Program-made: the position numbers and the translations under genes
The notes under the pieces: generated by a model
The model's database searches: none
Told to the model about the DNA's origin: nothing
Seen by the model: the letters and a program-made list of their open reading frames with translations, nothing else
In this document: in pieces, positions 18,570 to 33,868 of the stretch
Layout: every line of letters begins with the position of its first letter
Position numbering within the stretch: position 1 is the first letter of the stretch
Origin: Planctomycetota bacterium
Lineage (GTDB): Bacteria > Planctomycetota > Phycisphaerae > Phycisphaerales > Phycisphaeraceae
Length of the DNA stretch: 34,621 bases
Reading direction: 5' to 3'
Assembly (NCBI GenBank): GCA_021413865.1
Contig: JAIOPN010000054.1
Location: 1 to 34,621, forward strand

Positions 18570-20498
18570 ATGCGTCAAACAAGGGATATTTTCAAGGTCA
18601 TCATCAATCTGCCGGACCCTTCGGTGGATCAGGCCCTGGCGGACGCCCTCGCGACCGCCGAGCCGGACGACACCACCAGGATCGTCGCCACCCTGCTCCA
18701 AAGACGTCGGCCGCAGGGGCTGGTTCCCATGATCCTGCACTTCCACCAGCTCCCCCAGGACGCGCAATCCGACATCCTCACGCACGCCACCGATCTTTCC
18801 CACTCACTCCGTGAGGCGATGGCCGCCGACAACGGCCGGGGGGCCTCCAACGTCATCCAGATCATCACCCGCGCCCGGGCGGCGAAGCTCGCCTACCTGC
18901 TCTCGGACCAATTGCGTCACGGCCCGGCCGAACTGCGGCCGCTGGCCGCCAAGGGGCTGCTCGAGCTCGCCGAGAGCGCGCCGACAAATCAGCCCCAAGT
19001 CATGGAGGCGATCCAGTCCGCCGTGCGCGAGGCGCTGATCTCCTTCAAGGTGCACGGGCAGACGGGCGTGCTCCTCGCGCTGGCGGCCCTCGCGCCGCGC
19101 GACATGGCGGCGGCCGTCTCCATCATCGAGGACCGCAACCACGCCGCGCTCGAGCCGATGCGCAGGCTCATCACCATCGAGCTGCCCCCCGAGATCCGGC
19201 GCGGGCTGCTCGCCTGGGCGACCGTCAAACAGTTCACCCCCGCCGCCGTCACCGGCCTGGACCGTGCCTGCGGCGCGGGCCACCTGGGCGACGTCCTGGC
19301 CGGGGCGCACCTGCTCGCGCACGGGCAGGCGGCCCTCGCCGTCCGGAAGCTCCTCATGCCGCGACAGGCCCTGCCGTCGCGTGAATCGATCGCCGTGATG
19401 CCGCCCGAGCGGCTCCACTGGCTGCCCGCCTGGATCACCGCCCTTCAACTCGAGCCCGCGCAGCGCATCGACGCGCTCGCCTCGCTGCATACGGCCCCCG
19501 ACCCCGCGACCCGGCTGGCCGCGCTGCGCCGCCTGCTCGACCTCGCCTACCGCGCCCCGGGTATGCCGGCCACCTCGGGGGTTCCCCTGGCAACCATCGC
19601 CGCGGTCACCGCGCGCAGCGACATCGCCGTCGCCCGCTTCTGCGGCGATGAAGACCCCGCCATCGCGCGCATCGCGGTGCGCCACCTCGTGGGCCGGCGC
19701 TGGCCGGGGCTCACCAAGCTGCTCCTGCAACTGGTCAAGTCGCCCCACGAAGAAATCCGCAGGCTCGCCGGCGCCCACCTCGCACCGCTGGGTTTCACGC
19801 ACCTCTGGGACGCCTGGCCCCGCCTCAACTTCGCCCAGCAGATCGCCGGCGGCACCGCGCTCATCAAGCTCGACCCCGCGTTCCACCGCATGCTGGGCGA
19901 AAAGCTCGCCACCCCGCTCCGCGCCACGCGCCTGCGCACCATCTCCATCATCCAGACCCTCAACCAGACCGAGTTCTTCGTCGCCCCAATGGTCGCCCTC
20001 ACCGCCGAGAACGACGAGATCGTCGCCTCCGCCGCCGTGAAGGCGCTGGGGGCGGTGGACAAGCCCGAGTCGATCACAGCGCTGAACAAGGCGCTGACGC
20101 ACCACGACGCGCGCGTGCGCGCCAACGCGGTCGAGTCGCTGCACCAGTTGAAGCACCGCGACCACGAGGAGCGGTTGCTTGAGATGGCCCGCGAGGAGGC
20201 CAACCGCCCGCGTGCCAACGCGATCGGGGCGCTGATGGACATGCGTACCGCCGAGGCGCTATCGTCGCTCGTGAAGATGCTCGCCGACCCGCAGCCGGCG
20301 CAGCGCGCCAGCGCGCTCTGGCTGGTGGACCACATGGGGCTGATCGAGGTCGCCCGGCACGTCGCCGAGCTGGCCGTCGCCGACCCGGACTACGAGATCA
20401 AGTCCCGCGCCTCGGGTGTGATCCACCGTTTGATCGATTCGCTCAGGCCCAACGGCAAACCGGCGGGCGACGCCGAGCCGCGTCCCAAGGCGGGGTGA
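18570..20498 (+). CDS. HEAT-repeat scaffold protein
   Basis: The product has 642 residues, almost all alpha-helical. It has a repeated pattern of paired helices with the HEAT signature of a proline or alanine turn, such as ELRPLAAKGLLELAE (about 115-129), IARIAVRHLVGRRWPGLTKLLLQLV (split across about 362-386), and EIVASAAVKALGAVDKPESITALNKAL, followed by DARVRANAVESLHQLKH near residues 525-540. Such repeats make solenoids that bind other proteins; no enzymatic domain is present. There is no signal peptide, so it is likely cytoplasmic or membrane-peripheral. The next gene (20554) encodes a one-TM protein in the same direction and may be a partner; this is inferred from position. Specific function unknown. 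Confidence 0.87.
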   Translation: MRQTRDIFKVIINLPDPSVDQALADALATAEPDDTTRIVATLLQRRRPQGLVPMILHFHQLPQDAQSDILTHATDLSHSLREAMAADNGRGASNVIQIITRARAAKLAYLLSDQLRHGPAELRPLAAKGLLELAESAPTNQPQVMEAIQSAVREALISFKVHGQTGVLLALAALAPRDMAAAVSIIEDRNHAALEPMRRLITIELPPEIRRGLLAWATVKQFTPAAVTGLDRACGAGHLGDVLAGAHLLAHGQAALAVRKLLMPRQALPSRESIAVMPPERLHWLPAWITALQLEPAQRIDALASLHTAPDPATRLAALRRLLDLAYRAPGMPATSGVPLATIAAVTARSDIAVARFCGDEDPAIARIAVRHLVGRRWPGLTKLLLQLVKSPHEEIRRLAGAHLAPLGFTHLWDAWPRLNFAQQIAGGTALIKLDPAFHRMLGEKLATPLRATRLRTISIIQTLNQTEFFVAPMVALTAENDEIVASAAVKALGAVDKPESITALNKALTHHDARVRANAVESLHQLKHRDHEERLLEMAREEANRPRANAIGALMDMRTAEALSSLVKMLADPQPAQRASALWLVDHMGLIEVARHVAELAVADPDYEIKSRASGVIHRLIDSLRPNGKPAGDAEPRPKAG

Positions 20499-20508
20499 TA
20501 AAGACGGT

Positions 20509-20531
20509 GCCCCGTCATTCCAATGCGGGGC
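20509..20531 (+). repeat. Single REP-like hairpin between co-directional genes
   Basis: GCCCCG-T-CATT-CC-AATG-CGGGGC folds into a ten-pair stem with one bulged T next to the outer stem. The layout (GCCCCG, one bulged base, CAT...ATG, CGGGGC) matches each arm of the double-hairpin element at 28147-28223. It may be a solo copy of the same family. Confidence 0.6.
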
Positions 20532-20553
20532 TGCTGAGAATCGGAGTCCGACC

Positions 20554-21012
20554 ATGTTCCGCACGATGATCCTCGCCGCCGCAAGCACGCCGCCCATGGA
20601 CGAGCGCCAGGCGCGCCTGGAGCAGGTGACCCGGGGGTTCAGGCACCAGCCCTGGGGCGCCACCGAGATGATCTTCGTGGCGATCCTGGTGCTCATCGTG
20701 CTGATGGCGTACGTCCTCTACCGCTGGCAGCGCGAGCGCCGCCAGCGCTCCACGCCGATGCTCACCTTCCATTACGCCGCCGAGCAGATGGGGCTGGAGA
20801 TGCGCGACGAGCTATTGCTGGCGAGGATCGCCCGCGTGCAGGAATTGCCCTCGCCCCTCACGCTGATGCTCTCGCGCGGCACACTGCGTCACCACACCGC
20901 ACGCTACCTCAAGACGCTCTCCCCCGGCCAGGCGGCCCGCATCAACCGCCGCATCGAGGGCGTGGAGCGTCTGCTCTTCGAGAGCAATGCGGGCGTGAGA
21001 CAAGCCGTCTGA
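20554..21012 (+). CDS. Single-pass membrane protein, unknown function
   Basis: The product has 152 residues. A short N-terminal part is followed by one transmembrane helix (WGATEMIFVAILVLIVLMAYVLYRW, split about residues 34-58) and a basic stop-transfer sequence RERRQR. The remaining 85 residues form a soluble helical cytoplasmic domain, with FHYAAEQMGLEMRDELLLARIARV and SPLTLMLSRGTLRHH. I do not recognise a family, although the soluble part has the look of a conserved domain rather than a random tail. It follows the HEAT-repeat gene by 55 bases, separated by a REP-like hairpin. The ATG at 20554 has GGAG (20533-20536) too far upstream to be certain. Confidence 0.7.
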   Translation: MFRTMILAAASTPPMDERQARLEQVTRGFRHQPWGATEMIFVAILVLIVLMAYVLYRWQRERRQRSTPMLTFHYAAEQMGLEMRDELLLARIARVQELPSPLTLMLSRGTLRHHTARYLKTLSPGQAARINRRIEGVERLLFESNAGVRQAV

Positions 21013-21014
21013 CG

Positions 21015-21034
21015 CCTCGCCTCTCTGGGGAGAG
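21015..21034 (+). repeat. Degenerate REP-like repeat directly after a stop codon
   Basis: CCTCGCCTCTCTGGGGAGAG matches the hairpin at 6727-6746 (CCTCGCCCCTCCGGGGAGAG) with two mismatches. It begins two bases after the TGA of the preceding gene, as the 6717 copy begins right after its gene. Confidence 0.55.
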
Positions 21035-21115
21035 CGGGAGCACGATCGTTTGCGTCCATCGGCCCCGTGCCGTTACATTCCCCCACCCGCCGAGGCGGGG
21101 GACGAGGAATCCCGC

Positions 21116-21688
21116 GTGACCATAGAGATCGAAGCGAAGATGCGCGTGGACGACCGGGCGGCGCTCGAGGAGCGTCTCGCCAAGGCCGGCGCCCGTGCCG
21201 GCCCGGTGATCCACGAGACAAACACCTTTTTCGACACCGCTAAGGGCACGCTCAAGCGCTCCGACCAGGGCCTGCGCATCCGCGTCGAAGTAACCGGCGA
21301 CAACAAACGCACCGTCACCATCACGCACAAGGGCCCGCGCGACCAGGGCCGGATCAAACGGCGCATGGAGACGGAGCTCATCGTCAACGACGACCGCACC
21401 GCTTCCGAGATGCTCACCGCGCTGGGCTACGCGGTCGTGCTCAGTTTTGAGAAGACCCGTCGCCGGTGGGAGCTGGACGGCTGCCACGTCGATCTCGACA
21501 CGCTGCCGTACCTGGGGGATTTCGTGGAGATCGAGGGCCCGGACGACCAGGCGGTGCTCGCCGTGCGTGAGAAGCTGGGGATGGGCGCTTCCCCGCTGAT
21601 CCGCGCAAGCTACATCTCGATCCTCATCGACTACCTGACGCAGCACCACATCGAGTCGCAGCACGTGAAGTTCGACGACGCGAAGTGA
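21116..21688 (+). CDS. CYTH-domain protein (class IV adenylyl cyclase/thiamine triphosphatase-like)
   Basis: The product has 190 residues from a GTG at 21116, which has GAGGA at 21104-21108 in the right place. Upstream in-frame codons lie before any ribosome-binding site and would spoil the family start. The protein begins VTIEIEAKMRV, giving the E-x-E-x-K signature of CYTH enzymes. Next come FFDTAKGTLKRSDQGLRIRVE, KRTVTITHKGPRDQGRIKRRMETE, and a C-terminal GCHVDLDTLPYLGDFVEIEG. These supply the Lys/Arg and acidic rows of the triphosphate tunnel. Members act on ATP or other triphosphates (cAMP synthesis, thiamine triphosphate hydrolysis, inorganic triphosphatase). Which reaction applies here cannot be decided from sequence. 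It is convergent with the aminotransferase gene, 26 bases away. Confidence 0.93.
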   Translation: MTIEIEAKMRVDDRAALEERLAKAGARAGPVIHETNTFFDTAKGTLKRSDQGLRIRVEVTGDNKRTVTITHKGPRDQGRIKRRMETELIVNDDRTASEMLTALGYAVVLSFEKTRRRWELDGCHVDLDTLPYLGDFVEIEGPDDQAVLAVREKLGMGASPLIRASYISILIDYLTQHHIESQHVKFDDAK

Positions 21689-21714
21689 ATTGATTTATCT
21701 GGACGCCACACTCG

Positions 21715-22563
21715 TTACAGCTTCGTAATCCGCCGCATGAGCAGCTCGTGCATGCGGCGCGTGACCGGGCCCACGCGGCCGTCGCCGATCGGGCGGCCGT
21801 CGAGTGTCACCACGCCGGCGACGTGCGTCGTCGTCCCGCAGATGAACAACTCGTTGAGCTTGGACAGCTCCACCCAGGGCACGGCCGACTCGTTCACCGT
21901 CACGCCCGCCAACTTCGCCTCCTCGATCAGGATCGCGCGGGTGATGCCGCCGAGGATCCAGTGGTCCGCCGGGTGCGTCCATAATTCCCCGCCACGCACG
22001 GCGAAGACGGATGTGGAGGTGCCCTCCGTGACCCGGCCGTCGCGGAGAAAGATCGCCTCCTGCGCCCCCTTCTCCAGCGCGGCGTTCTTGGCCAGCACGT
22101 TGGGCAGGAGCATCAGCGACTTGATCGAGCAGAGCGACCAGCGCTGGTCCTCGTGCGTGACGCAGGCGATGGCGCGCGGCGGCGCGGCGGGGTCGGGCGG
22201 CGCGGCGGGGTAGGTGATGACCAGCACGGTCGGCGTGGTGTTGCGCGGGAAGCTGTGCTCGCGTGGGGCGACGCCGCGGGTGATCTGCCAGTAGGCCTTG
22301 GCGCTGTTGTAGCCGTTGCGTTTGAGAAGGTCGTCGGTGATGCCGCCGAGTTGATCGAGCTCCGCCGGGACGGGGATGTGGATGGCGTCGAGGCTGCGGC
22401 GGAAGCGATCGATGTGCTCGCGCAGGGCGAGCGGCCGGCCGTCGTAGTAGCTGACGACCTCGTACACGCCGTCGGCGAAGAGCGTGCCGCGGTCTTCGAT
22501 GTCGAGCGTCGCGCGCGAGCGTGGCAGGACCTGACCATTGAGATAAACGAAGGGCGCGTCCAT
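21715..22563 (-). CDS. dat: D-amino-acid (D-alanine) aminotransferase, class IV PLP enzyme
   Basis: The product has 282 residues, matching the D-alanine transaminase length. The ATG at 22563 has AGGGAA upstream and gives the usual start, MDAPFVYLNGQVLPRSRATL. The catalytic lysine K148 lies in SIKSLMLLPNVLAKNAALEKG, nearly the same arrangement as in bacillary D-amino-acid aminotransferase (DIKSLNLLG...LAK). GRVTEGTSTSVF (E180, T-S-T-S) supplies the cofactor phosphate and carboxylate contacts. The reaction is exchange of D-alanine and 2-oxoglutarate for pyruvate and D-glutamate, feeding peptidoglycan synthesis. A branched-chain aminotransferase is less likely given the closer match to the D-specific motif. 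It lies just downstream of galK in the same direction. Confidence 0.9.
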   Translation of the reverse strand: MDAPFVYLNGQVLPRSRATLDIEDRGTLFADGVYEVVSYYDGRPLALREHIDRFRRSLDAIHIPVPAELDQLGGITDDLLKRNGYNSAKAYWQITRGVAPREHSFPRNTTPTVLVITYPAAPPDPAAPPRAIACVTHEDQRWSLCSIKSLMLLPNVLAKNAALEKGAQEAIFLRDGRVTEGTSTSVFAVRGGELWTHPADHWILGGITRAILIEEAKLAGVTVNESAVPWVELSKLNELFICGTTTHVAGVVTLDGRPIGDGRVGPVTRRMHELLMRRITKL

Positions 22564-22623
22564 GCGGTGTTCCCTGTCGCTGCATTGTCGCGGGGAGGGC
22601 GCGGGAGTCAAAGCGGGAGAAGT

Positions 22624-22679
22624 GAAGCGAAGACCCCGGGCCTTCGCGGACCCGGGCCCGGGCATAGATGGAAGCGAAG
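22624..22679 (-). repeat. Palindromic element with 9-bp flanking direct repeat after galK
   Basis: A hairpin of CCCGGG-CC, loop TTCGC, GG-A-CCCGGG occupies 22635-22656 and continues as CCCGGGC. It is flanked by GAAGCGAAG at 22624-22632 and again at 22671-22679, one base before the galK stop. On the minus strand the loop reads GTCCGCGAAG. It lies between galK and the aminotransferase gene. Confidence 0.55.
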
Positions 22680-23891
22680 TCAGACGAGCGTAATCGCCCG
22701 TGCGCCGGGGGCGGGGCGGGTGACGAAGAGGGTGGGCTCGATGGAGGTGCGTTTCTTGTACTGGTCGTGCATGTATTGCGCCACGCGGTCGGCGGCGTCG
22801 GTGCGGACGAGCGTGACGGTGCAGCCACCGAACCCCCCGCCGGTCATGCGCGAGCCGAACACGCCGCCCGTGGTTTTGCCGGCCTCGCCCGCAAGCTCCA
22901 CCATCAGGTCGAGCTCGGCACAGGAGACCTCGAAGTCGTCCCTGAGCGAGGCGTGGCTCTTGTGCATGAGCCGTCCGAACGCGGTCCAATCACCGGCGAG
23001 CGCCGCCTCCGCCGCCTGCTGCGTCCGCGCGATCTCGCCGACAACGTGGTACGCCCGCCGGTATTCATCCTGGGTCATCTTGCCCTTCGCGCCCAGCAGC
23101 GCCTTCATCGGCAGGTCGCGCAGCGATTTCACGCCCGCCGCTCTCGCCGCCGACTCGCACTCGGCGCGGCGCTGGGCGTATTCCCCGCCGGTCAGCTCGT
23201 GCTTCACGTTTGTATTCGCGATAAGCACGCTCACGTTCGGGTCCGCCAGCGGCACCATGCGCGGGGCGAACGAGCGGCAATCCAGCAGCATCGCGTGCTC
23301 CGGCTGCGCGAGCACGGCGATCGCCTGGTCCATGATCCCGCAGGGGACACCCGCGTAATTGTGCTCGGCGGCCTGGCAGAGCCGTGCCTTGTCCATCGGC
23401 GGCAGGGTCTTGCCCGTCATCGCCTCCATCAGCGTCGCGGCCGCAACCTCCAGAGATGCGCTGCTGGACAGCCCGCCGCCCAGCGGGACGGTCGAGTCGA
23501 TCACGGCATCAAACCCGCCGGGGTCCAGGCCCGCGGCGAGGCAACCGGCGATAACACCACGCACATAATTTGACCACGGATCGGCGGCCCCGGCCCTGGT
23601 GACGGGGTGCGCGAGCGAAAAGATGACGGGTTTGTCGCCGCCGGAGTTGGCGCTCATAAGACGGACGGAGCGGGAAGGTTCGGGGGTGGGACCGGCGACG
23701 ATGACGGTCTGTCGTTGGATGGCCATGGGGAGGACGAAGCCGTCATTGTAGTCGGTATGCTCGCCGATGAGGTTGACGCGTCCGGGCGCGGCCGCGGCGA
23801 AGCGAGGGGAACGGCCGAACTGCCGGGTGAAGCGTGCGGCGGCGCGGGCGACCTGCTCATCCAACACGGGATCGGGGGCGGATTGGGGCAT
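22680..23891 (-). CDS. galK: Galactokinase
   Basis: The product has 403 residues and is a GHMP-family kinase that phosphorylates galactose at C1 with ATP in the Leloir pathway. The galactokinase signature GRVNLIGEHTDYNDG is at residues 37-51. The GHMP ATP-binding loop PLGGGLSSSAS is at 136-146, the catalytic aspartate lies in CGIMDQ (D188), and the C-terminal GGVFGSRMTGGGFGGCTVTLV carries the third motif. The gene is complete and no residue is missing. No other gal gene is present, and the neighbour downstream is an aminotransferase gene. The start is the ATG at 23891. A 33-bp inverted repeat covers the upstream promoter region. Confidence 0.97.
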   Translation of the reverse strand: MPQSAPDPVLDEQVARAAARFTRQFGRSPRFAAAAPGRVNLIGEHTDYNDGFVLPMAIQRQTVIVAGPTPEPSRSVRLMSANSGGDKPVIFSLAHPVTRAGAADPWSNYVRGVIAGCLAAGLDPGGFDAVIDSTVPLGGGLSSSASLEVAAATLMEAMTGKTLPPMDKARLCQAAEHNYAGVPCGIMDQAIAVLAQPEHAMLLDCRSFAPRMVPLADPNVSVLIANTNVKHELTGGEYAQRRAECESAARAAGVKSLRDLPMKALLGAKGKMTQDEYRRAYHVVGEIARTQQAAEAALAGDWTAFGRLMHKSHASLRDDFEVSCAELDLMVELAGEAGKTTGGVFGSRMTGGGFGGCTVTLVRTDAADRVAQYMHDQYKKRTSIEPTLFVTRPAPGARAITLV

Positions 23892-23920
23892 GCGGGCTCT
23901 GCGGTGTGCGTCTGGTGAGA

Positions 23921-23926
23921 ATGATA
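23921..23926 (-). promoter_or_regulatory. -10 box candidate for galK
   Basis: On the minus strand this reads TATCAT, 30 bases before the start. The -35 position 17 bases further up falls at about 23944-23949, inside the first arm of the inverted-repeat element at 23942. No independent -35 match is seen. Confidence 0.35.
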
Positions 23927-23941
23927 CCTCGGGAGGGTGTT

Positions 23942-24056
23942 TCCCATAGCCCCCGGCTCGGCCGGAGGGTTCTTCGAGCGATCACCGAACATCGGGCATG
24001 CACCGTGATGACGGTGGTCCAACAAGAACCCCCCGGCCGAGCCGGGGGCTATGGGA
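23942..24056. repeat. Double-hairpin inverted-repeat element, copy 1
   Basis: Two 33-base arms (23942-23974 and 24024-24056) are inverted copies with a single mismatch. Each arm starts TCCCATAGCCCCCGGC at its outer end, contains its own palindrome (CCCCCGGC-TCG-GCCGG), and has inner end TTCTT. The 49-base spacer begins CGA and ends CAAC, and includes the perfect hairpin CACCGT-GATG-ACGGTG (24001-24016). The element fills the divergent gap between galK and the amidase. A second element with the same inner ends lies at 28147. Confidence 0.8.
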
Positions 24057-24093
24057 CAGTGCAAGGCCCGAGATTTTCGCGGTTTTCAGGGGT

Positions 24094-24131
24094 GGCTCCG
24101 CATTCTTTTCACCCCGGAACCGGGCGGAGCC
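24094..24131. repeat. Palindrome next to the double-hairpin element
   Basis: GGCTCCG (24094-24100) pairs with CGGAGCC (24125-24131). Inside the loop, CCCGG-AA-CCGGG (24112-24124) forms a second stem, giving a compact branched structure. It lies between the inverted-repeat element and the amidase promoter. Confidence 0.45.
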
Positions 24132-24172
24132 GATGTGATAAGGATGGCATGGAGCGGGGGCGCGTGACCGGG

Positions 24173-24178
24173 TAGAAT
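24173..24178 (+). promoter_or_regulatory. -10 box candidate for the amidase gene
   Basis: TAGAAT lies 54 bases before the ATG at 24233, with no obvious -35 box. The same box, with weak -35 sequences, precedes other genes in this window. Confidence 0.35.
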
Positions 24179-24232
24179 ACAGGATTGCGGGGAGGGGTAC
24201 GACCTGCAAAATTCAGCACAGGAAGCGGTGGC

Positions 24233-24985
24233 ATGAGTCTGTCTCGACGCGATTTCGTCCTGCTTGGAATGGGGCTGATGGCCGCCGGCTGCGCGTCGCA
24301 GCAGCAGACGCAGAACGAGACCCCCGATGTCCTTTGGCCCGGGCACCTGGACCGACCGGTGCCGACGGGTCCGGGCTCTGCCACGCTGCCGACACACCCG
24401 AACACCGGTGCGATCCAGCCACCCCGCCAGCAGGTCGTTGAAACCCCCGTCGCCGGCTCCATCCAGGCGATCCCCCGCTCGCGTTGGGCGGCCGCGGGTC
24501 CGATCATGAGCAAGATGATCCCGATGAACGGGATAAACCGGATCACCGTCCACCACGAGGGCTGGACGCCCGTCTATTTCACGGACGCCGCCACCACTGC
24601 CTCGCGCCTGGAACGCGTGCGTCAGGGCCATCTGAGCCGCCTGAGCGCGGGTGATATCGGCTACCACTTCGTCATCGACCGCGCCGGCCGCGTCTGGCAG
24701 GGCCGTGACCTCCGCTACCAGGGCGCCCACGTCAAGGCGAACAACGAGCACAACATCGGCGTCATGTGCCTGGGCAACTTCGACCAGCAGTCCCCTTCCG
24801 ATCCGCAGCTCGTTGCGCTGCGCGACACGGTCTCCAAGCTCATGCGTCAGTACCACGTCTCGTCGAACCGGAACATCAAAATGAGCCGAGTGCAGACGCA
24901 CCAGGAAATCAACCCCACGCGCTGCCCGGGCTTGGCGCTCCAGCCGAAGATGGTCTGGCTGCGCCAGAACGGCTACCTGGGCTGA
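24233..24985 (+). CDS. PGRP/amidase-2 type N-acetylmuramoyl-L-alanine amidase lipoprotein
   Basis: The product has 250 residues. The ATG at 24233 has AGGAAG at 24220-24225. The N-terminus SRRDFVLLGMGLMAAGC carries a twin-arginine motif and a lipobox with cysteine C20, so the enzyme should be an envelope-anchored lipoprotein. A Pro/Gln-rich spacer runs to about residue 80. The amidase-2 domain (about 80-250) has the zinc ligands HH at 107-108, H223 in QTHQEINPTRCPG, and C231 as the cysteine ligand of the PGRP family. GYHFVIDRAGRVWQGRDL is also typical. The reaction removes the peptide stem from MurNAc. It probably serves wall remodelling or recycling in the periplasm. Confidence 0.92.
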   Translation: MSLSRRDFVLLGMGLMAAGCASQQQTQNETPDVLWPGHLDRPVPTGPGSATLPTHPNTGAIQPPRQQVVETPVAGSIQAIPRSRWAAAGPIMSKMIPMNGINRITVHHEGWTPVYFTDAATTASRLERVRQGHLSRLSAGDIGYHFVIDRAGRVWQGRDLRYQGAHVKANNEHNIGVMCLGNFDQQSPSDPQLVALRDTVSKLMRQYHVSSNRNIKMSRVQTHQEINPTRCPGLALQPKMVWLRQNGYLG

Positions 24986-25287
24986 TCGCCTGTCTTGTTT
25001 TGTAGTTCCTCGCCCGCTTCTTTCCCCAACATTCAATCCGCCTGTCTCTAATGTGTTCCCCTATGCGTCGTGTGGAGTTTTATAAAGCGCGACGCGGTCG
25101 TCGGTGTTTTTATGCCCGGCGCGTTGATAGGAAATAGACTCTCCGAAATGCCACTCTCGCCGCGTCGTCGCGGACGCCGCGAGATGGGGTTCCAGAGATA
25201 CGCGTTCGGCAATGCGGGGCCGTTGAGGGGTATCTGAATAAGCGGGCGGGCAGCACGCTCGATCCGCGAGGGGAGGGGGTTCAGGTT
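24986..25287. other. Intergenic region between amidase and WYL regulator
   Basis: About 300 bases with no convincing gene. The first 150 bases are AT-richer (runs such as TTTTGTAG, TTTTATAAAG and GTTTTTATG) with no clear stem and T-run as terminator for either convergent gene. A half-palindrome CAATGCGGGGCCGTTGAG at about 25211-25228 resembles CAATGCGGGGCTGCTGAG next to the hairpin at 20509-20531, but the matching GCCCCG half is missing. It may be a decayed copy of the same repeat. Confidence 0.5.
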
Positions 25288-26376
25288 CTACGAACCGAGA
25301 CGTGGCTGCCCGCCCTTTCCCATTTCGACCTCCTTGAGACTCTCGGACTGGTCATCGGACGACGGGGAGCCCGCGGGCGCAGGGGGCTCCCGCACCCATA
25401 TTTTCGGCGCTCGGTCCGGCGTGTCCGCCCGCGTCTGGCGCTCCGCCGCGGCCTCGTGCATGTGCCGCACCATCTCCCTGAGTTGCACCGGCATTAGCAC
25501 CGTCACCTGGTCGGCGTAGCCGCATATCCACCAGGCGATCTCGTTTAGACCATCCACCTCGAACCGCACCACGCAGCCCCCGCCGGGCAGCTTCGTGACC
25601 TGTTGCGTGCGGTGCCAGCGCACCTCGCTGACGTTGACCGCCACGCGCGGCGTGAACTCCAACTCGACCTGATACTCTTTCCCCTCGGGGATGAGCTGCC
25701 ACGCCCGCCCGAGTTTGTCCTCCACCCGGAAGCCCGTTGGCCGATGGAACCGCTGCTCCGTCGGCTCCATCGACACAATCCTCGCCAGCTTCAGCACGCG
25801 CACCTCGTCGTGTGCGTCGGTACGCCCCAGCACATACCACGCACGCGCCGCGAAGTGCAGCCCGTAAGGCTCGAATGTGAATGTTGATTCTTCCGCCTCC
25901 GCCGGGCTTTTGTATCGCACGCGGCAGGTCCGCCCCTCGTCGATCCAGCGGTGCAGCTCCGCGTAGTGGCGGCTGTCGTCGTCGCCGACGGATTGCGCGC
26001 CGTCATCAACCGAGACGTGCTCCATCATCTCGATGCACGCGCCGCGGATCGGCTCGGGCACCATCGCGATGAGCTTGTGGATCCCGGAGACCGCCGCGCC
26101 CGCCAGCGGCCGACGGCCCTGCGCGCCGACCGTCTTGCTCAAGAGCAGCAGGCCCAGCGTCTCGGGCACCGTCAGGTTCACCGGCGGGAGGAAGAACCCA
26201 TCGCCCAGCCGATAGCCGCGTCCCGGCTCGTGGTAGTACGGGATGCCCGCCAGTTCCAGCATCTTCAGGTCCCGGAAAAGCGTCCGCCGGCTGACCTCCA
26301 GCGTCCGCATTAATTCTTCCGTGCCCGGGCCGCACCCTGTTTGCAACAAGAGAATCAAACGCAACAGACGATGCAC
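25288..26376 (-). CDS. YafY-type transcriptional regulator with HTH and WYL domains
   Basis: The product has 362 residues from a GTG at 26376, which has AGGAA about ten bases upstream. The N-terminal 60 residues form a winged helix-turn-helix of the HTH_11 type (LLRLILLLQTGCGPGTEELMRTLEVSRRTLFRDLKMLE, split over about 4-41), with GRGYRL as the wing. Residues about 160-310 form the WYL region, with TCRVRYKSP, FEPYGLHFAARAWYVLGR and the C-terminal extension (VRWHRTQQVTKLPGG, WICGYADQVTVLMP). WYL domains bind ligands such as nucleic acids or signal molecules and are common in regulators of stress and defence genes. Residues after about 320 are disordered and Pro/Ser-rich. Its target is unknown; the divergent operon (dehydratases) is on the same strand, so no obvious partner is present. 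Confidence 0.92.
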   Translation of the reverse strand: MHRLLRLILLLQTGCGPGTEELMRTLEVSRRTLFRDLKMLELAGIPYYHEPGRGYRLGDGFFLPPVNLTVPETLGLLLLSKTVGAQGRRPLAGAAVSGIHKLIAMVPEPIRGACIEMMEHVSVDDGAQSVGDDDSRHYAELHRWIDEGRTCRVRYKSPAEAEESTFTFEPYGLHFAARAWYVLGRTDAHDEVRVLKLARIVSMEPTEQRFHRPTGFRVEDKLGRAWQLIPEGKEYQVELEFTPRVAVNVSEVRWHRTQQVTKLPGGGCVVRFEVDGLNEIAWWICGYADQVTVLMPVQLREMVRHMHEAAAERQTRADTPDRAPKIWVREPPAPAGSPSSDDQSESLKEVEMGKGGQPRLGS

Positions 26377-26726
26377 GCGGCTGGTATTCCTGAGGGCTCG
26401 TAATCCAACGCTGAGTTAGTGAGGCGCAGAGTGATATGCCGTCGCCCGCGTGACGCTTCAGACCCAATTCACCCCATCGACGTGGATAGGGAGAGCCTCT
26501 CCTGCTAAATGTCTAATCAACTCATCAACCGCAATATGATTCACCGACCCCGACTTCTCCCGTCCCTCTCGGTTCCCATCGATGCCAGACATGTCCCGGA
26601 AGGCACCTGATTCACTATGACCATTCGTCGGATGAAAAGCAAGGAAAACTTAAACCCGTGTTTCCAATTACCCGACCGCCCTCAGCGCATCGCGAAAAAG
26701 ACTTGAAACAAAGGGAATTGACGAAT
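26377..26726. other. AT-richer gap between the WYL regulator and dehydratase genes
   Basis: About 350 bases with no gene above 25 codons that carries a ribosome-binding site. The base composition is visibly less GC-rich than the flanking genes. It probably includes the upstream control region of the WYL regulator, which lies downstream on the minus strand. No hairpin, repeat or recognisable remnant of a gene was found. A ketosynthase, the usual next member of a dehydratase/ACP set, is not here. Confidence 0.5.
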
Positions 26727-27227
26727 TCAGAATCCGCTCTGCCGGATCAGATTCATGAACTGGTCAGTGAAAACAAAATTATGTTCAGGGAATTCCAGAC
26801 CGGCGCGGTTCTTATCGATGTGGCTGAACATGAGATCGATGTGCGCGAGCGGAACAATCGAAGCATCGGCGGGATTGATACGTTCAACAACGCCCGTGGT
26901 CGATGCGCCCGTCGCGTCGATGCGGTCCATCGTCGCGCTGTATCGGATCGTGTAGCCGGGCCATGCGGCGTCGGTGAACGCTGCGCGGCCGACCTTGGCG
27001 AGGATCACCTTCTCGGAAAAATCGTACGCGTGGCCGACCATGATGCCGGCGGTCTGCGCCATGCCCTCGATGATAAGCGTGTTGGGCAGCACGGGCATCG
27101 CGGGCCGCGTGGCCGTCGCGGGGAAGTGGTCGTGCAGCACCTCCTCCGCCAGCGACACGTTCTTGATCGCGACGCAGCGCTTGCCTTTTTCGAGCTCGAG
27201 AATGCGGTCGATCCAGATCCAGCGCAT
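26727..27227 (-). CDS. FabZ/FabA-type 3-hydroxyacyl-ACP dehydratase, atypical
   Basis: The product has 166 residues in a hot-dog fold, with the dehydratase histidine H34 in HDHFP and the acid residue E54 in LIIEGMAQTAGI. In classical FabZ the motif is HFPGxPVxPGV, but here six extra residues (ATATRPAM) separate HFP from PVLPN, so the substrate pocket is probably altered. It is the last gene of a three-gene minus-strand operon (dehydratase, ACP, dehydratase), with a 27-base gap to the ACP gene. It probably acts on a special acyl chain bound to that ACP rather than in bulk fatty-acid synthesis. The start is the ATG at 27227. Confidence 0.85.
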   Translation of the reverse strand: MRWIWIDRILELEKGKRCVAIKNVSLAEEVLHDHFPATATRPAMPVLPNTLIIEGMAQTAGIMVGHAYDFSEKVILAKVGRAAFTDAAWPGYTIRYSATMDRIDATGASTTGVVERINPADASIVPLAHIDLMFSHIDKNRAGLEFPEHNFVFTDQFMNLIRQSGF

Positions 27228-27254
27228 AGGGATTGTTTTCGCGGCGGAGCGACC

Positions 27255-27641
27255 TCACGCCGTCTTCGACTGCACGAACGCGACCAGGTCGCTCACCTTG
27301 ATGAAGTTGGGGAACTCGTTCTTGTTGCGGTTCTTGTCGAAGGCGTCGAGATCAATGTAGGGCAGGACCTTCCGCAGCTCGGCCATGCCGCCGTCGGTCA
27401 CCTTGTCGCCCTGCACGAACTGCGGGTTGTTCAGCACGCTCTCGGGGAAGAGCTCGCCCTGGTTAACCTTGATGCTAAACGCCTTCTCGAGGCGGAAGAC
27501 GATATCGAGGAAGTCGATCGACTCCGCGCCGAGGTCTCCGACCAGCGTCGCCTCGGGCGTCACCTCTTCCTCATCAACGCCCAGCGCCGCGGACAGCTCG
27601 ACCTGAACCTTCTTGAACGCCTCTTCGTTACTCATCGCCAT
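27255..27641 (-). CDS. Acyl carrier protein with C-terminal extension
   Basis: The product has 128 residues from an ATG at 27641, with GGAG eight bases upstream (TTG at 27662 and ATG at 27635 are alternatives). The carrier-protein core is residues 1-80, with the phosphopantetheine serine S41 in DLGAESIDFLDIVF. Ordinary ACPs are about 78 residues; this one continues for another 45 residues, including LRKVLPYIDLDAFDKNRNKNEFP and a short helix. Such extended carriers are known in specialised lipid or polyketide clusters. It lies between two dehydratase genes in one operon and is presumably their substrate carrier. Confidence 0.9.
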   Translation of the reverse strand: MAMSNEEAFKKVQVELSAALGVDEEEVTPEATLVGDLGAESIDFLDIVFRLEKAFSIKVNQGELFPESVLNNPQFVQGDKVTDGGMAELRKVLPYIDLDAFDKNRNKNEFPNFIKVSDLVAFVQSKTA

Positions 27642-27672
27642 GACCGGCACTCCGTTATCCAAAAGTTGATAT

Positions 27673-28068
27673 TTACTTCCAAGGCGGGCTCAGCGGCGTG
27701 AGCCGAAACCGGCCCTGCACCGCCACCTTGTCGCCCACGCTGCCCACGCCCTCGAACTCGTATCCCTTCTCGTCGCGCTTCCGCAGCGTGACCTCGACCT
27801 TCAGGCTCTCGCCCGGCCGGACCATGTTGGAGTAGCGGATGTTCCGCACCTCGCCAACCACCAGCGGGGCGTCCGGGCCCCCATCGTTCCGTCCCGCGAC
27901 CAACGCCCGGCCGGCCTGCGCCAGCGTCTCGAGCATCATCACCCCCGGCAGCACCGGGAACCCCGGGAAATGATCGGCCAGATACTCCTCGGCGCTGGTG
28001 ACATTCTTGATTGCCACCACCCGCTCGGGGCTACGCTCCAGCACCTGATCGATCAGCTCGAAACGCAC
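27673..28068 (-). CDS. fabZ: FabZ-type 3-hydroxyacyl-ACP dehydratase
   Basis: The product has 131 residues from a GTG at 28068, chosen because CAGGGG lies seven bases upstream; an in-frame ATG further back would add about 70 non-homologous residues. The classical motif HFPGFPVLPGVMMLETLAQAG spans residues about 33-53, with H33 and E47 as the catalytic pair. The enzyme dehydrates 3-hydroxyacyl-ACP to trans-2-enoyl-ACP. It is the first gene of a three-gene operon with an extended ACP and a second, atypical dehydratase, so it may serve a dedicated lipid pathway rather than general fatty-acid synthesis. A likely promoter lies at 28103-28131 and a double-hairpin repeat lies beyond it. Confidence 0.9.
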   Translation of the reverse strand: MRFELIDQVLERSPERVVAIKNVTSAEEYLADHFPGFPVLPGVMMLETLAQAGRALVAGRNDGGPDAPLVVGEVRNIRYSNMVRPGESLKVEVTLRKRDEKGYEFEGVGSVGDKVAVQGRFRLTPLSPPWK

Positions 28069-28102
28069 GCACAAACCCCTGTTTCCACGGGAAAGATCGC
28101 CG

Positions 28103-28131
28103 AGTGTAGCCCTATACCGAACACCACGCAA
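28103..28131 (-). promoter_or_regulatory. Promoter candidate of the dehydratase/ACP operon
   Basis: On the minus strand TTGCGT and TACACT are separated by exactly 17 bases, a fair sigma-70-type match, 35 bases before the GTG at 28068. The double-hairpin element begins 16 bases upstream. Confidence 0.4.
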
Positions 28132-28146
28132 ACCCCGCTCGGAGAG

Positions 28147-28223
28147 AGCCCCGCCATGCAAATGCGGGGCTTCTTCGATGTGTGGAGCGTCAACAAGAAG
28201 CCCCGCATTTGCATGACGGGGCT
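28147..28223. repeat. Double-hairpin inverted-repeat element, copy 2
   Basis: Two 29-base arms (28147-28175 and 28195-28223) are inverted copies with one mismatch. Each arm is itself a hairpin (GCCCCG, one extra base, CAT-GCAA-ATG, CGGGGC) and ends TTCTT at the inner side. The 19-base spacer CGATGTGTGGAGCGTCAAC starts CGA and ends CAAC, as in the copy at 23942. It fills the gap between the divergent dehydratase and ceramidase-like genes, upstream of both promoters. Confidence 0.85.
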
Positions 28224-28233
28224 GCGAAAACAT

Positions 28234-28239
28234 TACAAT
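28234..28239 (+). promoter_or_regulatory. -10 box candidate for the ceramidase-like gene
   Basis: TACAAT lies 29 bases before the ATG at 28268. The expected -35 position (28211-28216) falls in the right arm of the double-hairpin element and has no TTGACA match. Confidence 0.35.
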
Positions 28240-28267
28240 CTCCCGTCTCATCGCAGGAGTTCCGCAC

Positions 28268-29590
28268 ATGGCCAAGCCCCACGCCTCTAAAGGCTGGAAG
28301 ATCGGTTACGCCCAGGGCGACATCACGCCCAAAAAAGGCCAGACCCTCATGACCGGTTTCGGTCGTGAGCGCTACGCAGAGGGCACGCTCGCCCCGCTCC
28401 GCGCCCAGGCCGTCGCCCTGCGTGACACCAAGGGCAAGACCGCCCTGCTGATCACCGCCGACATCCTGGGCTTCGACCGGCGGAGTGTCGAGTTTCTCCG
28501 CCGCACGCTAGCCGCCAGGCACAAGATCGACCCGCAGGCCGTCATGCTCGCCGCCTCGCACACCCACTGGGGCCCGCCCACACTCTTCCGCGTCACCGCC
28601 GCAGTCGGTGCGCTGGACCCGTGGTACGTCGTCGGCCTCGAACGCAGGCTCGCCGCCCTCGCCGATGAGGCGATCAAGTCCCTCGCCCCCGGTGCGGCGA
28701 GCTACGGCTTCATCAACGCCGCCATCGGCCACAACCGCCGCCTGCCCCAGGACGACGGCACCATCGGCTGGGGCCCCTACCCCGAGGGCTTCTACGACAA
28801 CCACACCCCCGTCCTCCGACTCTCCCGCTCGGCGCGCGACGTGGACGACATCCTCCTCGTCGGCCACGCCTGCCACCCCACCAGCTCGGGCGGCATCAAC
28901 AAGTTCACACCCGACTACCCCGGCTCGATGCGCGACCGCATCGAATCGAAGCTCGGTCCGCGCAGCCGCGCCCTCTTCGTCATGGGCTGCGGCGCCGACG
29001 CCAAGGTCACCCACCTCGATGCCAAGTCGGGCCAACTGGTCTTCACCGCCGATCCCAAAAACTCCGCCAAGCGCGGCCGGGCCCTCGCCGACGACGTGCT
29101 GAAACACCTCGCCGACAAACGCGCCCAACGCCTCGACCTCCCCGCCTCGCTCCGCTGCAAGGTCGTCTCCGGCAATCTCACCATGACCAAGGCACGCAGC
29201 CCCGCCGAGATCGAGGCGATGGCGATGCGGCCCGACAACGGCGGGCACGAGGTCTGGTGGGCGCGGCAGATGCTCGCCTTCCCCGACGCTCGGCGGAAGC
29301 ACTACTACGAGGCGCAATCCTGGGTGCTGGGCAACGCGCTCACCGTGCTCGCGCTCGAGGGTGAAGTCTGCAGCCCCCTGGGCCCGCTGGCGCGCGGGCT
29401 GGCGCGGACGCCGCACGCCATGACCATCGCCTACGCCAACGAGGTGCAGGGCTACATCCCCACGAAGCGGATCGTGCTCGAGGGCGGCTACGAGGGCGAA
29501 TCCTCCCACCGCGCCTACTTCAAGCCCGCCCCCTTCACGACGCGCGTCGAGGCGGAGTTCAAAACGATTGTCCGCCGCGCGGTGAAGTAG
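28268..29590 (+). CDS. Neutral/alkaline ceramidase-type N-terminal domain protein
   Basis: The product has 440 residues. AGGAG at 28253-28257 supports the ATG at 28268. The protein begins GYAQGDITPKKGQTLMTGFGR, matching the opening of the neutral/alkaline non-lysosomal ceramidase N-terminal domain (a G-x-x-D-I-T-P strand). ASHTHWGPP near residue 97 and VGHACHP near residue 198 supply the zinc histidines, and NEVQGYIPTKRIVLEGGYEGE near the end is also typical. No signal peptide is visible, unlike secreted ceramidases, so substrate and location are uncertain; many planctomycete members of this family have unknown hydrolase activity. It is divergent from the dehydratase operon and separate from the downstream kinase-like gene. 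Confidence 0.88.
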   Translation: MAKPHASKGWKIGYAQGDITPKKGQTLMTGFGRERYAEGTLAPLRAQAVALRDTKGKTALLITADILGFDRRSVEFLRRTLAARHKIDPQAVMLAASHTHWGPPTLFRVTAAVGALDPWYVVGLERRLAALADEAIKSLAPGAASYGFINAAIGHNRRLPQDDGTIGWGPYPEGFYDNHTPVLRLSRSARDVDDILLVGHACHPTSSGGINKFTPDYPGSMRDRIESKLGPRSRALFVMGCGADAKVTHLDAKSGQLVFTADPKNSAKRGRALADDVLKHLADKRAQRLDLPASLRCKVVSGNLTMTKARSPAEIEAMAMRPDNGGHEVWWARQMLAFPDARRKHYYEAQSWVLGNALTVLALEGEVCSPLGPLARGLARTPHAMTIAYANEVQGYIPTKRIVLEGGYEGESSHRAYFKPAPFTTRVEAEFKTIVRRAVK

Positions 29591-29630
29591 TTATTCCCGG
29601 CCCCGCTAACGCCTCCCCAATACCTCGATC

Positions 29631-29636
29631 TATAAT
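29631..29636 (+). promoter_or_regulatory. -10 box candidate for the kinase-like gene
   Basis: A perfect TATAAT lies 105 bases before the ATG at 29741 and 41 bases past the ceramidase-like stop. No convincing -35 box is seen, as at 12032. Confidence 0.4.
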
Positions 29637-29740
29637 GTTCACGGTGGTTAGTCCGCATTGCCGACAAAAGCCCAACGGTTTTCGGACCGATCCATACTTC
29701 CGGGGGGCGGGGCCGCGTAATTCCACCCGAGACGGTGCGA

Positions 29741-31078
29741 ATGATTCAATCGGTCGGCAACTCGAAACGGTGGTGGTCCTGGCGGCCCTGGGGGCGTTCC
29801 GGCTGTGAGTCGTCGGCGCTGGTCCCCGTGGTCGTCGAGCACTTCTCCCGCACCAACGCCGAGTACCAGCGCATCCGCTCGCAGACCTCCTCCAACGGCC
29901 ATCCCGGCCTGGTCGATTTCCTCTTCGCCGACCCCGACTCGCCCCACTCCCCCGAGACCGTCTTCGACCGCCTCCGCTGGGGTGGCCTCTTCATCTACGT
30001 CACCAGCCGCGCCCAGGACGCCGCCGTCTGCGCCCAGCAATTCCGCGCCGGGCGAGGCTTCGTCATCGAGACCCAGCCCACCTCCATCCGCGCCGACGAG
30101 CACCGCCTCTTCCGACGGGCCAGAAGGGCGCATTACTTCATCGCACGCAAGATCGACCTCATCCAGATCGGCCAGACCACCGACCGCTTCACCTACCACG
30201 TCTATCTCACCAAGCGCCCCGACCCAGAGCAGGGCTGGGTCGTCTGCAAGGAAATCCCCGACACCGACAAGGTCATCACCCGCCTCCGCGAACGCTTCCC
30301 CGAGGCCACCGAGGAGATGATCACCAAGAACGCCCGCAAGCTCGTCGAAAAGGTCTTTCCCGTCTTCCTCACCCGCGAGGCCGCCTTCCTCCGCATCCTC
30401 CAGCGCGACCTGCCCCCCGAGTTCCAGAACCGCCTGCCCAAGCTCTACGAATACGAAAAAGACGCCAACGGCTTCGTCAAACGCATGTACATCCAGTGGC
30501 TCCGCAACGGCGGTTGGCCCATCACGCAGATCGAGTTCGCCAAGCAGTCCGCCAAGCTCCTGGAAATCCTCCACGAACGCATCGGCGTCATGCACCTGGA
30601 CCTCCGGCTGGACAACTTCGTCATCACCAAAGACGGCGTGGGGTTCGTCGACTTTGGCTCGGCCGTCCGCGTCGGCGAGGACCTCACGCAGAGCCCCATG
30701 CTCGCCCGCCTCTTCGACGAGATGATGACCACCTCGCAGATCCAGCGCGACCTGGGCCGGATGAAAAAAACCGGCCGCGTCACGTCCAAACTCTTCTGCG
30801 ACAACCACGAGAAGGTCGACAAGGCCGTCGACCTCTTCTACCTCGCCATGCAGATGAACGATCCGCACGCCAACCCCGACTTCGTGGACCTGGTCGAGTT
30901 CCACCGCGGCAGCGAGGAGACCCGCCTGCTCGCCACGCTCACCCGCGAAATCCTCCAGCCCACCGACCCGCAGAACCCCGCCTACCGCACGGCGACCGAC
31001 ATCCTCAACGGCATCGAGCGCGTCGAGGCGGAACTCAAACACCTCGCCCCCACGCCGGCCGCAGTTCCCGCGGCATGA
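29741..31078 (+). CDS. Protein-kinase-like protein with methyltransferase-like N-terminus
   Basis: The product has 445 residues from the ATG at 29741; a GTG six bases earlier is also possible. The N-terminal 110 residues include VDFLFADPDSPHSPETVFDRLRWGGLFIYV, split at about 58-88, a layout resembling the end of an SAM-dependent methyltransferase fold, but the glycine loop is absent. From about residue 140 comes a kinase: a short N-lobe with VVCKE as the ATP lysine, a helix with REAAFLRIL, a hinge, then H-L-D-L-R-L-D-N (catalytic loop, about 286-293) and DFGSA (about 305-309). All catalytic residues of a small-molecule or LPS-type kinase are present. Substrate unknown. It is not fused to a sensor and has no membrane segment. 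Confidence 0.82.
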   Translation: MIQSVGNSKRWWSWRPWGRSGCESSALVPVVVEHFSRTNAEYQRIRSQTSSNGHPGLVDFLFADPDSPHSPETVFDRLRWGGLFIYVTSRAQDAAVCAQQFRAGRGFVIETQPTSIRADEHRLFRRARRAHYFIARKIDLIQIGQTTDRFTYHVYLTKRPDPEQGWVVCKEIPDTDKVITRLRERFPEATEEMITKNARKLVEKVFPVFLTREAAFLRILQRDLPPEFQNRLPKLYEYEKDANGFVKRMYIQWLRNGGWPITQIEFAKQSAKLLEILHERIGVMHLDLRLDNFVITKDGVGFVDFGSAVRVGEDLTQSPMLARLFDEMMTTSQIQRDLGRMKKTGRVTSKLFCDNHEKVDKAVDLFYLAMQMNDPHANPDFVDLVEFHRGSEETRLLATLTREILQPTDPQNPAYRTATDILNGIERVEAELKHLAPTPAAVPAA

Positions 31079-31085
31079 CCGCCCG

Positions 31086-31105
31086 CCGCTCGCGGCTTAG
31101 CGTCC
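31086..31105 (+). repeat. Stop-proximal repeat, copy after the kinase-like gene
   Basis: CCGCTCGCGGCTTAGCGTCC starts 7 bases past the stop of the kinase-like gene, in the sense direction, followed by TCTCTTCTCC. It is identical over its 20 bases to the copy read from the minus strand at 16561-16580. Confidence 0.75.
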
Positions 31106-31123
31106 TCTCTTCTCCCCGCCACG

Positions 31124-31152
31124 CCCGATGACGAGTCCGCGAGTCGTCGGGG
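31124..31152 (+). repeat. Bulged hairpin with GTCCGCGAG loop
   Basis: CCCGA-(TG)-ACGA pairs with TCGTCGGGG around GTCCGCGAG. The loop sequence recurs at 6754-6762 and, on the minus strand with AAG, in the element after galK. A long pyrimidine tract follows to the start of the DapA-family gene. Confidence 0.5.
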
Positions 31153-31212
31153 TCCCCTCCTCTCCCCCCTTCCCCTTTGCATCCCCTTTCTTTTTGCGTT
31201 TGAATTCCCCCC

Positions 31213-32127
31213 ATGCCCCACCACCCCGAACTCCAGCACGCCCTCGCCTCGCCCATACCCTCCATCCGCACCCCCTTCCTCCGCGACGGGGCCATCAACT
31301 ACCCCGGCCTGCGCGACTATGTCGAACGCTGCATCGCCCACGGCGCCCAAGCCCTCATGCTCACCTACGGCGACAGCCTCTTCTCCCTCCTCACCGACGC
31401 CGAGCTCGCCGACGTCACCCGCGCCGTCGTCGAGCAGGCGTGTGGCCGCGCGAAAATCATCGCCGCCGACCGCCAGTGGTGGACCGGTAAATGCGTCGAG
31501 TGGGCGAAGTTCTGCCGCGAGATCGGCGCCGACATCGTGATGGTCTATCCGCCCGACTGGGTGCAGTCCTGCACCATCGAAACCCTCGCGGACCACTACA
31601 CCGCCGTCTCCCGCGAGCTGCCCGTCATGCTCGTCACCATCGCGCTCATCAAGCGTGACGAGGAGTTCCGCATGGAGCTTGTCCGCAGGCTCTACGAAAA
31701 CTCCCCCGGCGTGGTCTCGGTGAAGGACGACATCTGCGGCCCGTTCGGCCAGCGCATGGCCGCCGCCGTCCACGACCGCTGGACCGTGATCGCCGGCGGC
31801 ACCAAACAAATCCACTTCGACCTCGCCCCGCACGGCTGCCGCGGCCACCTCTCCACGCTCCTCGTTTACAAGCCCGACATCGCCCGCCGCTACTGGTCCG
31901 CCGTCACCGCCGGCGACACGGCCGCCGCGAAAAAAATCGTGGACGACTACGACATCCCCATGTTCGCCGCCATGTCCGCCCTCCCCGGCTCCTTCGACGC
32001 CGGCATGCACGCTTGGTCCGAGCTCGCAGGCATCCACCCGCGCTGGCGCCGTGCCCCCTACTACAACCTCACCGACGCCGAAATGAACTCCTTCGCCGCC
32101 CAACTCGAGAAACTCAACCTCCTGTAA
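31213..32127 (+). CDS. DapA/NanA-family class I aldolase, atypical
   Basis: The product has 304 residues, the usual size for the TIM-barrel dihydrodipicolinate synthase/N-acetylneuraminate lyase family, which forms an imine with pyruvate. The Schiff-base lysine is K171 in GVVSVKDD. Two other hallmarks differ: the GTTGE pocket loop is TYGDS (51-55), and the strand before the catalytic site is VTIALIKRD, without the Tyr of the usual Y-N-x-P motif. Catalysis could still proceed, but the substrate is probably not the lysine-pathway one. The upstream region holds the stop-proximal repeat and a CT-rich tract, and no Shine-Dalgarno is visible before the ATG. The next gene in the same direction encodes a dioxygenase. 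Confidence 0.88.
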   Translation: MPHHPELQHALASPIPSIRTPFLRDGAINYPGLRDYVERCIAHGAQALMLTYGDSLFSLLTDAELADVTRAVVEQACGRAKIIAADRQWWTGKCVEWAKFCREIGADIVMVYPPDWVQSCTIETLADHYTAVSRELPVMLVTIALIKRDEEFRMELVRRLYENSPGVVSVKDDICGPFGQRMAAAVHDRWTVIAGGTKQIHFDLAPHGCRGHLSTLLVYKPDIARRYWSAVTAGDTAAAKKIVDDYDIPMFAAMSALPGSFDAGMHAWSELAGIHPRWRRAPYYNLTDAEMNSFAAQLEKLNLL

Positions 32128-32143
32128 AATCCCCCGTCCCCCG

Positions 32144-32163
32144 CCGCTTGCGGCTTAGCGTCC
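32144..32163 (+). repeat. Stop-proximal repeat, copy after the DapA-family gene
   Basis: CCGCTTGCGGCTTAGCGTCC starts 16 bases past the stop in the sense direction, followed by CCTCTGCTCTTC. It differs from the 31086 copy only in T for C at one position. The first 17 bases are identical to those inside the signal-peptide codons at 12648. Confidence 0.75.
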
Positions 32164-32214
32164 CCTCTGCTCTTCTTTCCCTTTTCATCCACTCACCCAA
32201 CCCGAACCACTCCC

Positions 32215-32952: not shown

Positions 32953-33000
32953 TCCGTTCGGTCATTTCCAACCTCCGAGCCGGCGGCCATTGCTTTAGGC

Positions 33001-33006
33001 TAGAAT
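33001..33006 (+). promoter_or_regulatory. -10 box candidate for the methyltransferase gene, possibly leaderless
   Basis: TAGAAT ends only seven bases before the ATG at 33014, so transcription could begin at or within a base or two of the start codon. There is no ribosome-binding site in that gap. A leaderless mRNA is plausible. Confidence 0.4.
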
Positions 33007-33013
33007 CGTCATC

Positions 33014-33862: not shown

Positions 33863-33868
33863 GCACGG

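Follow-up and report, generated by a model that had tools for sequence, protein, structure and literature searches.

What kind of element is a pair of inverted hairpins that occurs twice in one stretch of DNA, with different arms and the same plan, each time between divergent genes? The stretch, which we call the window, is 34,621 nucleotides (nt) long and comes from a Planctomycetota bacterium of the Phycisphaeraceae (contig JAIOPN010000054.1, assembly GCA_021413865.1). It is contig C59 of a 67-contig assembly of 4.37 Mb that is 95% complete (the genome is labelled G000). A sequence-only reading had taken its two elements, A and B, either for mobile pairs like repetitive extragenic palindromes (REPs) or miniature inverted-repeat transposable elements (MITEs), or for structured DNA that regulates the genes on either side. 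We conclude that A and B are very probably two families of REP-type repeats, often arranged as head-outward doublets (REP doublets forming hairpins, REPINs) and linked to REP-associated tyrosine transposases (RAYTs), which would have moved them. This REP-like reading is supported by the number of copies, by their intergenic position and by RAYT genes that have these or similar hairpins at their sides.

The two elements and their copies

Element A (23942-24056) consists of two 33-nt arms that are 97% complementary, with 1 mismatch. Its left arm (23942-23974, plus strand) begins with the head CCCATAG, continues as the hairpin CCCCCGGC-TCG-GCCGGAGG and ends in GTTCTT; after a 49-nt spacer (23975-24023; strand does not apply to the spacers) follows the inverted right arm (24024-24056, minus strand), its head pointing outward. 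Element B (28147-28223) has 29-nt arms, again 97% complementary with 1 mismatch: the left arm (28147-28175, plus strand) reads AGCCCCG-C-CAT-GCAA-ATG-CGGGGCT, with one bulged base, then TCTT, and a 19-nt spacer (28176-28194) leads to the inverted, head-outward right arm (28195-28223, minus strand). Both arm pairs are prominent among the 19 inverted repeats of the window, and base complementarity would allow every arm a hairpin of its own. The fold of the whole elements stands far out from shuffles (z -9.4 to -10.7, both strands), the predicted best fold being a long arm-to-arm pairing and not two separate hairpins. The double-hairpin plan first noticed in the letters is real, both elements being inverted pairs of GC hairpins. 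A solo hairpin (20508-20532, plus strand), which follows the stop of a called gene at 9 nt and precedes the next called gene by 21 nt, had been likened to one arm of the second type. It fits the B-arm pattern with 1 mismatch and folds with z -3.4 against shuffles.

Both families are short imperfect palindromes in high copy, as REPs and REPINs are. With up to 3 mismatches, the A-arm pattern matches 125 times genome-wide and its reversed form 3 times; with up to 2, the B-arm pattern matches 42 times and its reversed form never, and the expectation of further copies elsewhere in the genome was thereby borne out. Double-foot palindromes are counted on both strands here, and the 3 mismatches permitted for A mean that a few places may be chance. 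BLAST with element A gave 84 rows; 40 of 105 candidates were scored, the alignment comprises 40 copies with that of the window included, and the listed A-arm places are the first 100 of the 125. These 40 copies, and the 64 A places considered below, are therefore a subset of the family. Outside this genome, a contig search with the exact A-arm pattern found two single arms in Planctomycetota bacterium B28T1B8 and nothing further, and one A copy had BLAST matches, mostly single arms, in 12 of 60 relatives (at most 14 candidates scored per genome).

The consensus of family A is roughly CCCATAGCCCCCGGCTCSGCCGGGGGGTTCCGCGAGCGATCACC...GATCCAACGAAGAACCCCCCGGCSGAGCCGGGGGCTATGGG. That of the B arm is AGCCCCG[T/C]CATGC[C/A]AATGCGGGGCT, then mostly TC, and the 4-mers ahead of AGCCCC in 43 B arms are mainly CCGG and CCGC. 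In both families the head is an unpaired 5' end that finishes in AG, CATAG in A and mostly GCAG or GGAG in B; CCCATAG is found in 93 of 104 A arms, which were chosen for heads no more than about one change away from it.

How the arms are arranged was read from the fetched loci. Inverted heads-outward doublets, the form that defines REPINs, make up 37 of 64 A places, next to 17 single arms and 10 double-foot palindromes; in B they make up 10 of 29, next to 3 heads-inward doublets and 16 single arms. The single-arm counts are upper bounds because a diverged partner arm evades the pattern, and three such A places (C4:356606, C30:34759 and C4:62106) align over most of the element. Head-to-head (HH), tail-to-tail (TT) and single units have been reported for REPs (PMC3733652), and the double-foot form has been ascribed to a central deletion within an inverted dimer (PMC6006769).

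The sequence-only reading had set store by inner ends and spacer ends common to A and B, and TTCTT|CGA...CAAC|AAGAA can indeed be read in both window elements. As exact strings they are peculiar to these two copies, and we reject them as a family mark. The pattern TTCTTCGA-N8..38-CAACAAGAA occurs at 1 place in the genome and is absent from 40 relatives, with a gap range too short for the longer A spacer; among the 40 aligned A copies, TTCTTCGA is present in 2, CAACAAGAA in 5 and both in the window copy only, the commoner inner ends being TTCCGCGAG (18/40) and CAACGAAGAA (20/40). The hunch holds in a looser form: the 3' tails of both A and B arms start mostly with TTC, and the spacers of the two families resemble each other. 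B-to-A spacer alignments reach a mean score of 22.4 against 17.2 +/- 0.7 for shuffled spacers, or 17.9 +/- 0.7 when the five end bases are held fixed, with 0 of 200 shuffles as high in either case (the comparison used 11 B spacers, those 30 of the 40 A copies whose spacer was caught by the pattern, and mononucleotide shuffles).

RAYT genes and the hairpins around them

A gene of RAYT type, whose presence had been proposed as a check, lies in the genome itself. It was found at G000:C26:7721-8236 by searching 61 genomes with a relative's RAYT (G015:C28), to which it is 39% identical and which itself has B-like hairpins on both sides. B doublets wrap the C26 gene at 7631-7700 and 8264-8333, both heads-inward and with the same 20-nt inter-head sequence, so that the same hairpin stands on both sides of it. 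In 15 loci of this clade viewed by eye, out of 30 fetched among the matches listed, hairpins flank the gene on both sides in 12, on one side in 2 and on neither in 1. The C26 gene lies downstream of another at G000:C26 5914-7548 (L086:915-2549), which by its sequence is presumably groEL.

For type A, the flanked genes are found in relatives. Nine relatives were singled out for their A-type matches, and a pattern scan of 52 Y1_Tnp loci placed A-type hairpins next to the gene on both sides in G009 and on one side in G033. The G009 protein, P0001 (25.1 bits to PF01797), was searched against the 61 genomes, and 30 loci were fetched among the matches listed. P0001 and its six next best places (G029, G008, G015, G002, G011 and G036; 36-59% identity), from seven genera in all, have AGCCCC-stem-GGGG hairpins of A type or A-like on both sides in 7 of 7 cases. 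The stems vary by lineage: AGCCCCGGGCTCTGCCCGGGG in G009, AGCCCCCGGTTCCACCGGGGG in G029, AGCCCCCGGCTCCGCCGGGGG in G008 and G015, AGCCCCCCGTCACTGACGGGGGG in G002, AGCCCCGGGTCAGTGACCCGGGG in G011 and AGCCCCGGGTCAATGACCCGGGG in G036. The A core pattern itself (at most 1 change) occurs in 3 of these 30 loci, each of which belongs to the four best matches.

In an alignment of 16 chosen RAYTs of both clades, the C26 protein included, H83, H85 and Y162 are invariant; the flanked genes keep the HuH (histidine-hydrophobic-histidine) motif and catalytic tyrosine that a REP or REPIN system calls for. A profile of the 16 finds four solved chains named only 'transposase' (best E 4.4e-4), which we take to be IS200/IS605 enzymes. 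From homology, these residues and the flanking hairpins, we class the P0001, G015 and C26 genes as putative RAYTs.

Several observations weigh against the REP-like reading. The doublets around the C26 gene are heads-inward, unlike the heads-outward element of the window, and 3 of the 15 loci of its clade lack a hairpin on at least one side. Many places in the genome are single arms (17/64 in A, 16/29 in B), and the canonical GT[AG]G foot occurs in neither family. Of the 52 scanned loci, few have the pattern near the gene: two that represent a single place in G009, one in G033 with a hairpin on one side, and G015:C28, where it is B-like. The proteins are barely recognised: P0001 scores 24.6 bits and the G015 RAYT 22.3 against an NCBIfam REP-transposase cut-off of 80, PHROGs returns for P0001 one weak transposase match (E 0.24), and for the C26 protein Pfam, NCBIfam and PHROGs all come up empty at E up to 1, which is why a PF01797 search missed it. 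An A-type RAYT was not found in the 95% complete assembly, where P0001 has one weak 26% match, inside the valyl-tRNA synthetase gene valS. Could the C26 RAYT, if its stem specificity were relaxed to an AG head and a TTC tail, mobilise A as well as B? We think this unlikely; family A would then persist without a RAYT of its own.

A reading as MITEs in the strict sense is not supported. Classical MITEs of a DDE transposon have terminal inverted repeats and a target duplication, and the 29-33 nt inverted termini, the length of 77-115 bp and the many copies would suit them. The duplication is missing: among 38 scored A copies, 37 lack any direct repeat of 2-10 nt at their ends and one has 2 nt (two of the 40 copies were dropped, with one end unrecognised), which fits the RAYT mechanism. 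Single arms are moreover common, as are heads-inward pairs and double-foot forms, and the hairpins wrap genes of HuH type. A DDE-type origin is highly improbable and we reject it, while the REP-like part (copies, intergenic position and RAYT linkage) is upheld, with mobility as its conditional component.

The five PF01797 matches in this genome do not explain A or B: the only pattern matches in their loci are a B arm at a distance of about 7 kb and, more than 3 kb off, one A match that is doubtful. Other inverted hairpin pairs lie by Y1_Tnp genes, at L084:575-666 (G000:C28), L081:547-715 (G000:C64) and L080:3811-3895 and 4420-4540 (G000:C56), which suggests several more REP families. Near-identical Y1_Tnp genes at two contig ends (L081:1-481 and L082:1-481, the starts of G000:C64 and C6) are probably a repeat that broke the assembly.

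A RAYT domain was also met in an unusual place. In G000:C4, a 1220-aa open frame (L207:1293-4955; also L083 and L205) whose remainder is valyl-tRNA synthetase (NF004349, 1019 bits) carries an in-frame RAYT/Y1_Tnp domain (PF01797, E 5e-9), and by eye the insert is bounded by inverted REP-like repeats. In G004 and G032 an insert occupies the same position, with ...VTDDxxRGxALRAM ahead of it and ...YAKTFxxWHxNxRDWCISRQ behind it, and G036 has the same downstream edge; in G015, G033 and G040, KMSKS and a HuH motif occur together in long frames. The valS stretches fetched showed no HuH motif in G048 and no such frame in G029, and a literature search returned no report of a RAYT domain inside valyl-tRNA synthetase.

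Position among genes and changes in the stem

Where do the copies lie? Genes were called by codon usage, using a script of ours for which 319,972 bases of fetched loci served as training set. These loci were chosen around elements, so the background gaps (at least 20 nt) are not a random sample of the genome. None of 93 element places (64 A, 29 B; 5 at locus edges) overlaps a called gene by more than 15 nt, and the copies fetched, if not the full set, are extragenic, as the sequence-only reading had it. The A copies lie in 31 tandem, 19 convergent and 11 divergent gaps (3 at edges), the B copies in 18 tandem, 4 convergent and 5 divergent gaps (2 at edges), and the background comprises 83, 18 and 24.

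Both full window elements do sit in divergent gaps by our calls, and from this came the idea that such elements prefer these gaps and regulate divergent promoters, acting on both flanking genes. Neither claim survived. The divergent share equals the background in both families (A 11/61, B 5/27, background 24/125; Fisher p = 1 for both), and copies in tandem gaps cluster near the upstream stop. We therefore reject divergent-promoter regulation, which now seems extremely unlikely; two divergent gaps in one window illustrate how the position of a copy can mislead on function.

In tandem gaps of up to 600 nt (31 places for A), the median distance of A copies is 10 nt to the upstream stop and 52 nt to the downstream start. 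They are nearer the stop in 23 of 31 cases and within 15 nt of it in 19 of 31, and 0 of 5000 random placements came as close on average. For B the medians are 18.5 and 81.5 nt (12 of 18 places used, 12 nearer the stop; p 0.0012). At a few A places the gene ends on the TAG of the element itself (distances -5 to -7), so the closeness is inflated. Convergent gaps are over-represented for A (19/61 against 18/125; Fisher p 0.011).

The stems also show compensated changes. Of 104 A arms, 90 have C-G and 8 have G-C at pair 5, and double changes elsewhere are rarer; the arms were chosen for at least 6 of 8 stem pairs, which biases the paired share. With that proviso the changes would support the earlier suggestion of selection on structure. 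In some A copies (L041 and L056, by eye) a stem change affects one arm only, which points to the single arm, and not to two-arm pairing, as the conserved structure.

Might the host itself have selected these hairpins at gene ends, as bidirectional terminators or as stabilisers of mRNA 3' ends? Such a role would be compatible with a REP origin, and the excess of A in convergent gaps, the positions just past stops, the compensated stem changes and a TTCTT tail resembling a weak T tract speak for it. Yet of the arms in 20000-34621 a terminator scan picked out one of type A and none of type B (11 sites in total against 9.5 expected from shuffles), the commoner A tail TTCCGCGAG has no T run, the closeness to stops owes something to the element's own TAG, and a function at gene ends alone would leave the hairpins that wrap RAYT genes unexplained. 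We regard this role as a tentative possibility.

Proposed movement by RAYTs and likeness to known REP systems

Under the REP-like reading, we envision that a RAYT, as an HuH transposase with a single tyrosine, binds the hairpin in single-stranded DNA and would cut it with the AG-ending 5' head as guide. The doublet would be the unit that is moved or copied into intergenic sites, without target duplication. B would be served by the C26 RAYT that its doublets wrap, and A may owe its spread to a RAYT like those of G009, G008 and G015, since lost from this genome or unassembled. Effects on neighbouring genes would be side effects, likelier at mRNA 3' ends than at promoters. The pairing of RAYT lineages with hairpins makes guide recognition testable.

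How do these families compare with known ones? Literature searches returned only an irrelevant listing for REPIN with Planctomycetota and nothing for REP palindromes with Phycisphaer-. The REPINs of Pseudomonas fluorescens SBW25 (PMC3116915) are likewise inverted extragenic REP pairs with one predicted hairpin for the whole pair and a RAYT link; here, by contrast, the heads are CATAG or G[C/G]AG, A has no RAYT in the assembly and many arms are single. In the RAYTs described between two inverted REPs (PMC2817692), too, an HuH/Tyr gene is wrapped in hairpins repeated across the genome and the stems vary by RAYT lineage, but the REP heads are GT(A/G)G, and those of A and B are not.

The GTAG- and CGTC-tagged REPs (PMC3733652) share these features: HH and TT dimers next to single units, intergenic location, mainly in unidirectional or convergent gaps near the 3' ends of open reading frames, an element TAG that sometimes serves as stop, and REPtrons with a RAYT. 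Neither tag is present here, although the A foot ATAG and the TTAG of relatives are one base from GTAG. Without the GT[AG]G 5' foot, we reject membership of the GTAG-tagged superfamily.

The TnpA-Y1/REP systems with atypical hairpins, whose class 3 occurs in Planctomycetes (PMC6006769), resemble ours in their HuH-Tyr genes, in non-canonical repeated hairpins flanking them and, for A, in double-foot REPs. Class 3 is described with a CnGA foot and a Y----Q motif, whereas our clades have heads ending in AG and, in nearly all of the 16 RAYTs aligned, xxxH after the tyrosine (Y---H); class 3 membership is rejected on both counts. A and B are new families of a known REP kind, to be filed neither with the GTAG-tagged REPs nor with class 3. 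Their feet are unusual for REPs, and with them come two clades of RAYTs barely recognised by standard models, all from little-studied bacteria.

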